Assembly: GCF_000179575.2 (NCBI RefSeq) | Contig: NC_015636.1 | Coordinates: forward strand, 62,001 to 126,000 | Reading direction: 5' to 3' | DNA: 64,000 bases | Origin: Methanothermococcus okinawensis IH1 | GTDB taxonomy: Archaea; AGJL01; Methanococci; Methanococcales; Methanococcaceae | Translations under genes and position numbers: made by a program | The notes under the pieces: generated by a model | What the model was told of the DNA's origin: nothing | What the model saw: the letters and a program-made list of their open reading frames with translations, nothing else | Databases searched by the model: none | Part shown: positions 386 to 19,567 of the stretch, in pieces | Layout: the number at the start of each line of letters is the position of its first letter | Numbering within the stretch: the stretch's first letter is position 1

Positions 386-493
386 TTATAAAATTGATAA
401 ATAATATTTAAATTTAAATATAAAAGTTTATATACATTTATTAACATATTCAATCGTTATAGGTTATAATTTATGGATTATTTTGGTGAGAAT

Positions 494-827
494 ATGGCTA
501 CAACCTATGAATTAAAGATATATGGAAAAGTTCAGCATGTAGGACTTAGAGGTAGAATAGAAAATATTGAAGGGGTTTAGGAATTGATGGGGTGGTATAT
601 AATTACGAAGATGGACAATTAAGGATTTTAGCAAATTTTGATGACGAAGAAATAAAAGACTTTTTTAAGAAAAGCATTAAGTTTTTGGAAAAAAAGACAA
701 TTTAATTAGGATAGAAGGAATCGAAGAAAAAGAACTAAATGCGTTTATTGAATTTCCAAAAGGCATTAACCGAATATCAGCAGATGATTTAATAGAACTT
801 AATAAAAAATTAGATGAAGGGGGTTAA
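494..827 (+). pseudogene. Decayed acylphosphatase-like gene
   Basis: ATG 494 opens [21 protein letters not shown], resembling the acylphosphatase N-terminus (YGxVQxVGxR phosphate loop). The frame stops at a TAG near 580, but the family-like sequence resumes in the -1 frame ([16 protein letters not shown]). It stops again after a run of seven A near 700 and resumes once more in -1 as an EEKELNAF stretch ending at TAA 827. Restoring one base at each site would give about 110 residues, close to a normal acylphosphatase (~90) plus a tail. Two independent lesions make a pseudogene likely, although sequence error would look the same. It would have hydrolysed acyl phosphates. Confidence 0.7.
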
Positions 828-837
828 ATATATTAAA

Positions 838-1004
838 ATGATATTTGGGGTTTTGGATGAAGTTAAAAAAGGTCAGGAAATATTAATTAGCAGTCAAATG
901 AGTTAGTCAATAGTCAGAGGGAACTATTGGAGGGACAGAAAGAACTATTGAAAGGACAGAATGAAATGAAAGAGATATCAATAAAAATTGAACAGAAACT
1001 TTAA
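838..1004 (+). pseudogene. Broken small coiled-coil ORF
   Basis: ATG 838, 10 bases after the acylphosphatase-like remnant, opens MIFGVLDEVKKGQEI. It reaches a TAG near 900, after which a heptad-like segment (QRELLEGQKELLKGQNEMK) continues in the -1 frame to TAA 1004. One extra A in the short A-run near 897 would join both halves into about 55 residues. The spacing and shared decay suggest it was co-transcribed with the preceding remnant. I do not recognise a function beyond a likely coiled coil. Confidence 0.45.
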
Positions 1005-1722
1005 GATTTAATTTTTTCTTTTATTGCTACAACACCAATATAACATCCAAAGTTCTTTAAAAAACTTTTATAAAGGAATGTGTCTATAAAAGAATTGGTG
1101 ATATTTGTTCCAAATGTGTATTTTATATGAAAACCATATTTATCAAGTGCCTTAATGACATCGTCTAAATTATAAAACTTCGTTTTTACCTTTATTTTTT
1201 TCCAGCTATAACTTTTACAATCTCTCCTTTTTTATTTTTAACAGCTTTTTTAGTATTTTTTATACCTTTTCGCATTAGGGCTTTAATTATCCATCTTATA
1301 TCATAGACATTTGCAACTGTGAATATTAAAATTCCATCGTTTTTTAATACGCGTCTTATCTCTTTCAGAGCTCGGTTAAGTTGCACATGATTCAGAGCTC
1401 CGAAAAATGATATTACACAATCAAAAGTTTTACTCTTAAATGGGATATTTTCTACATTACCTACTACAATAAATTTATTTGTTTTGCTATGTGCTATTTT
1501 TGCCATTTTTAGGGATATATCAAGACCTATTGCAGTATTATTCAATTTTTGTAATTGCTCGCCTGTTCCGCATCCAATATCAAGAACCAAATAATCCTTT
1601 TTAATTTCGTTTTTTATTATTATATTTTCTATTTCCCTCATCCATCTTAATTTTCTTCCATAATACAAATTATTGTATTCATTTGCTAAATTATCATAAT
1701 ATTCTACCAACTTTCTATTCAT
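1001..1722 (-). CDS. Class I SAM-dependent methyltransferase, frameshifted near the C-terminus
   Basis: The protein begins MNRKLVEYYDNLANEYNNLY, has SAM-binding motif I VLDIGCGTG near residue 47, and motif IV-like FDCVISFFGALNHV near residue 100. This is the UbiE/Methyltransf_11 type, acting on an unknown small molecule or macromolecule. The reading frame ends early at 1192 in KVIAGKK-stop. The -1 frame continues from the same A7 run with IKVKTKFYNLDDVIKAL and runs about 65 further residues to a TAA at 1001-1003, giving about 240 residues in total. The junction reads gg-A_AAA_AAA-taa, a canonical -1 slippery heptamer abutting a stop. It is therefore a one-base deletion, a sequence error or real frameshifting. 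Confidence 0.75.
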
Positions 1723-4019: not shown

Positions 4020-4885
4020 TTGAATAGTTATAAAATTTATTATCGGGAAATCATGATATCACTGTTGATAAAACCAAAAGTATTACAGATTGAAACTACC
4101 AACGATTGTAATAGTAATTGCAAAATATGTATGAGAAGTTATTTAAAACGTCCAGTAGGCTACATGAATTTCGAAGACTTTAAAAAATTACCACTGAAAG
4201 ATTTTAATGAGGTAGCATTACACGGTTGGGGAGAATGTTTATTACATCCTGATTTGTTTAAAATGGTGTCCTATGTTCATTCTCTCGGAGTAAAAACAAG
4301 TTTATGCTCTAATGGAACATTGTTGGATAAAAGATTAGATGAACTTCTTAATAGTGGATTGGATGAAATTGCATTTGGAATATATTCACTAGAAGGTAAG
4401 GATAAAGTTATTGAAAACATAAGAATGCTTGTTGAAGAAGCAAAAAGAAATAATAATCCAATTAAAACATATATCGACATTACAATGTTTAAGGATAACT
4501 TGGAAAATATTCCTGAAATTATAGATAAAGGTATAGATATCGGTGTTAGTGGAATAGTATTGCATAGACTTTTTGACATATATGGTGTTGATGACAGTAT
4601 TAAATATGGTTTAAATAGCAAAGAAGAAAAAAATTTACAAGGGAAATTGTTGAAAAATATAAAGGTAAAATAAATGTATATCCACCTTTGCCCCATACAA
4701 CACCATGTAGAATATTATTAAATTGCATGTTTGTAAAATGGGATTGCCAACAATCTCCATGTGTATATCTTACCAACGATTCATTAGGCGATGCACGAAC
4801 TACATATTCTGAATTAAGAAAACGGCATATAATGTTTATAAAAAAGGTGAAAAAAAATGACATCTGTAAGCAATGTATCTGGTAA
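4020..4885 (+). CDS. Radical SAM protein with C-terminal cysteine cluster, frameshifted
   Basis: Residues ~27-37 (TTNDCNSNCKICMR) carry the CX3CX2C radical-SAM iron-sulfur motif, followed by a typical MNFEDFKKL segment and an HGWGECLLHP strand. The first frame stops at 4673, shortly after an A7 run near 4627. The -1 frame carries on as FTREIVEKYKGKINVYPPL, then a cysteine-rich end (PCRILLNC, WDCQQSPC, ICKQC) like a SPASM or twitch domain that binds extra clusters, ending at TAA 4885. The restored length is ~288 aa. Such enzymes often modify ribosomal peptides or enzyme active sites; the two MCAP peptides just upstream are candidate substrates by position only. The start may be TTG 4020 or ATG 4053. 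The restored 3' end overlaps the next gene by 29 bases. Confidence 0.75.
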
Positions 4886-9650: not shown

Positions 9651-10450
9651 ATGTTAAAAATAGGCGTGGTTGGATGTGGAACAATAGCCACATTGATAAC
9701 AAAAGCAGTGATATCAGGAAAAATAAACCCAAAAATTGTTGCACTGTATGATAAAAATAGACATAAATCAGAAGAGCTCAAAAAATTGATAGATGCAGAA
9801 ATATGTGATTCAGTAGATGAACTTGTAAGCAAGGACTTAGATTTAATAATTGAATGTGCCTCAGTTAATGCTGTTGAGGAGACAGTATCCAAGGCACTTA
9901 ATAATGGCAAGGATGCTATTGTAATGAGTGTTGGAGCATTTGCAGATAAAAACTTATTTTTAAAATTATACAATCTTGCTAAGGAAAAAATAAAAAAATA
10001 TATATTCCATCAGGTGCTATTGCAGGAGTTGATGCCGTTAAAGCCTCATCCTTAGGTCATATTGATGAAGTTACTTTAACAACAACAAAACCGGTTTATG
10101 GATTAAAGGATGCATTAAAAAAACTCGGAGTAGATACCAATGCTATTTCAAAACCTACAACAGTTTTTGAAGGAGATGTATTTGAAGCCATTAAAGAATT
10201 CCCACAAAATATAAATGTATCTGTAATCCTTTCACTGGCTTCGAAAGTTCCTGCAAAAGTTAAAATAGTGGCAGACCCATCCGCAGTATCAAATAAACAC
10301 GAGATATTGGTTAAAGGTTCCATAGGGACTATAAAAACTGTAGTTGAGAATAACCCATGCAAGGATAATCCTAAAACCTCAGCATTAGCTGCATACTCTG
10401 TAATAAGGCTTATAAAAGACCTATCAGAACCTGTAAGAGTAGGAACTTAA
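9651..10450 (+). CDS. nadX: L-aspartate dehydrogenase, frameshifted
   Basis: The N-terminal Rossmann fold [16 protein letters not shown] binds NAD(P). [10 protein letters not shown] and VMSVGAFAD follow. At an A7 run near 9993 the annotated frame drifts into [12 protein letters not shown] and stops at 10055, while the -1 frame continues [18 protein letters not shown] to the expected family end [21 protein letters not shown] at 10450. SGAIAGVDA is the substrate-binding region of aspartate dehydrogenase. The joined protein is ~266 aa, full length. It makes iminoaspartate for NAD synthesis with quinolinate synthase. The site is at-A_AAA_AAA, again a -1 shift. One missing A in the sequence, a real mutation or frameshifting could each explain it. 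Confidence 0.85.
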
Positions 10451-18520: not shown

Positions 18521-18772
18521 ATGGAAAACGAAATGATATATACTATACCATTGAGAGACATAACAAATAAATCAAAAGCTACAAAGAGAGCTCCAAGAGC
18601 AGTAAGAAAAGTTAGAGAATTTTTAAAAAGGCATACAAAATCAGAAATCGTAAAATTAGACAATTCCATCAACGAAAAAATCTGGGAAAGGAGTTTAAAT
18701 AAAATCCCTGCAAGAATAAGAGTTAAAGTTGTTAAAGAAGAAGGTGTAGCAAAAGCTACATTGGTAGAATAA
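18521..18772 (+). CDS. rpl31e: Ribosomal protein eL31
   Basis: 83 residues: [20 protein letters not shown], ALRKxRE-type [20 protein letters not shown] and [13 protein letters not shown], the archaeal/eukaryotic L31e family at its usual length. It binds the large subunit near the tunnel exit. ATG 18521 follows GAGGTG. The genes for aIF6 and LX come next, a conserved archaeal ribosomal cluster. Confidence 0.95.
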
Positions 18773-18887: not shown

Positions 18888-19567
18888 ATGATAATGAAAG
18901 AATACTTTTCTGGAATATCAATGATTGGAGTCCTTTCCCTTGCAACAGAAAAGTTTGGATTATTTCCTCATTTTATAGGGGAAAAATCGCTAAATAAATG
19001 TGGCAAGATATTGGATGTTCCAGTTAAAAACCTAAATATTGGAAATAGTTCCTTAATTGGTTCGCTATGTGTAGCAAACTCAAATGGTCTTATTCTTCCA
19101 CCATTTACTTTGGATAAAGAAAAAGAATTAATCACTAAATTTTTAAAGGAAAATGATATAGAAATCACCGTTAAAAAATTAAGTGCCAAAAACACAGCAT
19201 TTGGAAATTTAATATTAGCCAACGATAAAGGTTGTATAATTTCCAGAGAATTAAAAAATTTAGGACTACTATCGAAGATATCCTTGATGTAGAGGGAGTA
19301 GTTAGCGATATTGCAGGACTTTCCACAGTAGGTTCAAATGGTGTAGCTACAAATAAAGGTTGCTTAGTTCATCCAAATACAACAGAGGATGAGCTCGGAC
19401 TAATAAAGGATGTCTTGAAAATACACTCCATAGAAAGAGGAACTGCAAATAAAGGTATCCCATCAGTAGGAGCCTGTATTATAGCAAATTCAAAAGGTGC
19501 CGTAGTGGGTGGAGATACCACAGGACCAGAGATGTTAAAAATAGAAGAAGGTCTTGATTTAATATAA
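18888..19567 (+). CDS. eif6: Translation initiation factor 6 (aIF6), frameshifted
   Basis: The start is ATG 18888 after TTGTGATAATT. The pentein-fold repeats are plain: [71 protein letters not shown]. The first frame runs into [13 protein letters not shown] and stops at 19292, while the family sequence goes on in -1 from the tt-A_AAA_AAT site near 19252 as [15 protein letters not shown] to TAA 19567. The joined product is ~226 aa, full length. aIF6 binds the 50S subunit, prevents premature joining and is expected to be indispensable, so either the sequence lacks one A or expression needs a -1 slip. Confidence 0.92.

Follow-up and report, generated by a model that had tools for sequence, protein, structure and literature searches.

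A single missing base splits aIF6 in the genome record of Methanothermococcus okinawensis IH1, most likely an under-called homopolymer

In the genome record of Methanothermococcus okinawensis IH1 (1,662,525 + 14,930 bases), the archaeal initiation factor aIF6 is encoded in two overlapping reading frames that are offset by one base. This raises the question of whether the cell makes aIF6 by frameshifting, has lost it, or carries an intact gene that the record misrepresents. A reading of the letters alone (hereafter, the sequence-only reading) had singled out this gene as a good test between an artefact and a programmed shift. It has served as such, and the outcome lies on the side of the artefact. 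The window, i.e., the whole stretch of 64,000 nucleotides under analysis, corresponds to C2:62001-126000; coordinates given without C2 are positions in the window.

The two reading frames of aIF6 and their relatives

The aIF6 locus lies between two ribosomal protein genes and comprises the following features:

18521 to 18772, plus strand: ribosomal protein L31e, upstream neighbour of aIF6
18888 to 19292, plus strand: aIF6 N-terminal frame (frame 0), PF01912 positions 4-115
19232 to 19567, plus strand: aIF6 C-terminal frame (-1 frame), PF01912 positions 121-197
19253 to 19259, plus strand: A_AAA_AAT at the junction, with six A's compared to seven in the sister genome
19644 to 19871, plus strand: ribosomal protein L18a/LX, downstream neighbour of aIF6

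Frame 0 opens with ATG at 18888 (or ATG at 18894) and stops at 19290-19292. It is authentic up to about 19256, and the stretch from there to the stop is an aberrant tail, while the -1 frame is authentic from about 19259. The only start candidate of the -1 frame is a TTG at 19232, with no ATG before its last residues. When joined at TTA_AAA_AAT, the two frames give one continuous aIF6 protein, confirming both the clean join and the coordinates of the sequence-only reading. The two halves match different parts of the Pfam eIF-6 profile (PF01912), and both frames together match it from end to end. A chance reading does not account for the split. The presence of an intact aIF6 gene elsewhere had also been raised as a point to check; a search of the whole genome yielded no second copy.

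The frame-0 codons at the junction read GAA TTA AAA AAT TTA, so that A_AAA_AAT stands in the zero frame inside the frame overlap, as expected of a slippery heptamer for -1 programmed ribosomal frameshifting. In the nearest sister, the metagenome-assembled genome of Methanothermococcus sp. S013_52_esom (G003), whose aIF6 protein is 89% identical, the same junction reads GAA TTA AAA AAA TTT. Here seven A's stand in frame and the gene is intact, and the sequence around the junction is otherwise near-identical. A longer A run, named beforehand as evidence against the split, was thus indeed found, although in the sister genome and not in a re-sequenced copy of the strain.

In a panel of 41 genomes, each of the 37 others with a match carries a single unbroken aIF6. 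None of these 37 matches was frameshifted, and the -1 shift is therefore not conserved. Additionally, both halves of the gene are constrained when compared to the sister (dN/dS = 0.23 for the N-terminal half and 0.09 for the C-terminal half). This signature of purifying selection indicates that aIF6 has stayed a single protein up to the very recent past or to this day.

One-base losses across the genome

In order to place the missing base in context, sister proteins were aligned to the DNA of this genome with a frameshift-aware aligner. The sample comprised 864 kb of the genome, taken in stretches (about half of it, including the window), against 1.06 Mb of the sister, and gave 424 orthologous pairs with 126,017 codons. 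Within these genes we counted 27 one-base losses and 4 one-base gains relative to the sister. One of the losses is offset by a paired gain, leaving about 26 clean losses. One-base losses affect about 6% of the genes compared, aIF6 and aspartate dehydrogenase among them. Of the 10 events that the reverse scan gave over 126,990 codons, at least three are mirror images of known losses and two represent a single gene counted twice.

Most of the losses lie within runs of A5 to A8. Others were found in G2, C2, G3, G5 and T3 contexts, and the pattern consequently extends beyond A runs. The frequency of losses per intact A run rose from 2/1112 for A6 (about 0.2%) to 5/407 for A7 (1.2%) and 10/102 for A8 (10%), the original run lengths having been assigned by hand from the alignments, with a few ambiguous cases. 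A/T runs of at least nine bases were five times rarer in the whole sample than expected from the rate in the sister (6 vs. 29, P = 3e-5). The losses thus climb with run length, hit unrelated genes independent of register and of base (A, T, G, C), and are accompanied by a scarcity of the longest runs. Run-length dependence and a shortage of long runs are the marks of under-called homopolymers.

Sense-strand losses were more frequent in A than in T. This excess was considered as a sign of rescue at the RNA level and rejected on run counts: it arises because A runs of at least six bases are about seven times as numerous as T runs in these genes.

Besides aIF6, three further genes in the window have lost one base:

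1019 to 1710, minus strand: methyltransferase-like gene (named by inspection), one base lost at about 1197
4620 to 4640, plus strand: radical-SAM-like gene, one base lost in an A7 run at about 4632
9651 to 10450, plus strand: aspartate dehydrogenase (nadX), sole copy in the genome, one base lost at about 9984-10001

In the methyltransferase-like gene, the lost base sits in an A7 run when compared to the sister. In nadX it lies in an A-rich stretch, and the gene is split in the same way as aIF6.

Several observations were made alongside. In the dihydroxy-acid dehydratase gene (ilvD; C2, about 308390), an A is lost from an A6 run and the product is about 20 residues short. A VWA-domain-like gene on the minus strand shows two one-base losses 89 bases apart (C2 152931 and 153020), from G2 to G1 and from C2 to C1, outside of long G/C runs. 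Window positions 482-1001 hold a coding stretch whose frame changes several times, in both directions, when set against its multi-copy relatives in the sister, and it resembles a decayed copy rather than a single under-call. At C2 261616-261679, four one-base gains occur within 65 bases compared to two sister copies, a sign opposite to the rest of the genome. This is probably a transposon gene, judged by eye from a zinc-ribbon motif.

That several core genes (aIF6, nadX and ilvD) are damaged by one type of event points to the record, not the cell, as being at fault. We therefore propose, with a probability of roughly 0.88, that the aIF6 split is a homopolymer under-call in the assembly and that the gene is intact in the cell. 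Homopolymers in the record would come out one base too short, and steeply more often as runs lengthen, which would be why the assembly displays six A's. The cellular junction would then read AAA AAA TTT, with seven A's, and ordinary translation would yield full-length aIF6 with no need for a frameshift. From the sequence comparisons, the missing base is most likely a sequencing or assembly error rather than a real deletion. Real replication slippage depends on run length as well, which is the main reason why we do not hold the under-call with greater confidence; the coincidence of the aIF6 site with a proven archaeal slippery heptamer also counts against it. A literature search returned nothing useful on genome errors, re-sequencing or the proteome of this strain.

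Slippage, programmed shifting and loss of function

The strain could truly have lost one A and tolerate this loss through ribosomal or transcriptional slippage on A_AAA_AAT, giving enough full-length aIF6. The identical heptamer directs proven -1 frameshifting in the Sulfolobus solfataricus gene fucA1 at about 5-10% (PMC8211752), and slippage at the junction would yield a perfect full-length aIF6. A candidate weak hairpin is located 5-7 nt downstream of the heptamer, and the 60 nt that follow have a better fold than is seen after 98% of ordinary A_AAA_AAT sites. However, the sister folds differently and does not conserve the hairpin. Over the 86 nt downstream, folding did not surpass that of shuffled sequences (z = +0.16), and the best 60-nt downstream window, which was chosen after looking, reached z = -1.6 against shuffles. 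We regard the downstream fold as weak evidence for slippage. Moreover, such tolerance would have to recur in about 6% of genes, including losses of G and C and the 12 of 27 losses in which the frame overlap contains no slippery heptamer, and we consider a tolerated loss unlikely. Somewhat less likely again is that the six-A run is real and aIF6 is made exclusively by slippage, as one of dozens of slippage-dependent genes in an AT-rich methanogen. Should the six-A run nevertheless be true, aIF6 would provide a rare example of frameshift dependence in an essential gene.

A programmed, regulatory -1 frameshift as a conserved feature of aIF6 would account for the in-frame slippery heptamer and the clean join of the product. 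Yet this heptamer is common in frame, with 297 copies spread over 166 of the 388 unbroken orthologous genes, and the shift is absent from every relative. Across the broken genes, losses in A6 or A7 runs fell into the slippery register in 11 of 17 cases, where random phase predicts about 9, i.e., there was no enrichment of this register, and downstream structure at such sites showed no significant gain in strength over ordinary sites (P = 0.12). No Shine-Dalgarno-like GGAG, GGTG or GAGG was present in the 25 nt upstream of the aIF6 heptamer, and an Rfam search around the junction gave sub-threshold chance matches only. The programmed shift weighed by the sequence-only reading thus finds no support: no relative has it, and the losses are random in register and include G and C, which cannot slip. 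Its probability is minimal.

Taken as written, the two open frames could also mean that the cell has truly lost the function of aIF6, or that it makes a working split protein from two separate polypeptides. No plausible start for a separate polypeptide exists in the second frame, though, and aIF6 is essential in Haloferax volcanii, where it could not be deleted (PMC3828320), and was found in 32 of 32 near-complete genomes of the panel. The expectation that a true knock-out is improbable therefore holds, and we rate loss or splitting of the protein as very improbable.

Comparison with known systems

The probable under-call in aIF6 can be set beside three published cases. The alpha-L-fucosidase gene fucA1 of S. 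solfataricus is the sole -1 programmed frameshift shown in Archaea (PMC8211752). It shares with aIF6 here an in-frame A-AAA-AAT and N- and C-terminal frames offset by -1; as the heptamer is the same, the idea of a programmed shift was not fanciful. Features of fucA1 that set it apart from aIF6 are tandem rare codons, a putative stem-loop, the same interruption in two strains, and experimental proof. In aIF6, by contrast, the shift is absent from relatives, and genes without a slippery site are broken as well.

In the GeneTack survey, frameshifted genes that occur as singletons are expected to be sequencing errors (PMC3711429). The aIF6 gene resembles these singletons in having database matches and no frameshifted orthologues. 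The broken genes in this genome record call for caution before they are read biologically.

A close parallel is aIF1 (SUI1) of S. solfataricus P2, for which proteomics also reported a peptide in the shifted frame (PMC8211752). Both are archaeal initiation factors annotated as split by a -1 shift, and aIF1, annotated as interrupted, turned out to be full-length once it was re-sequenced (PMC8211752).
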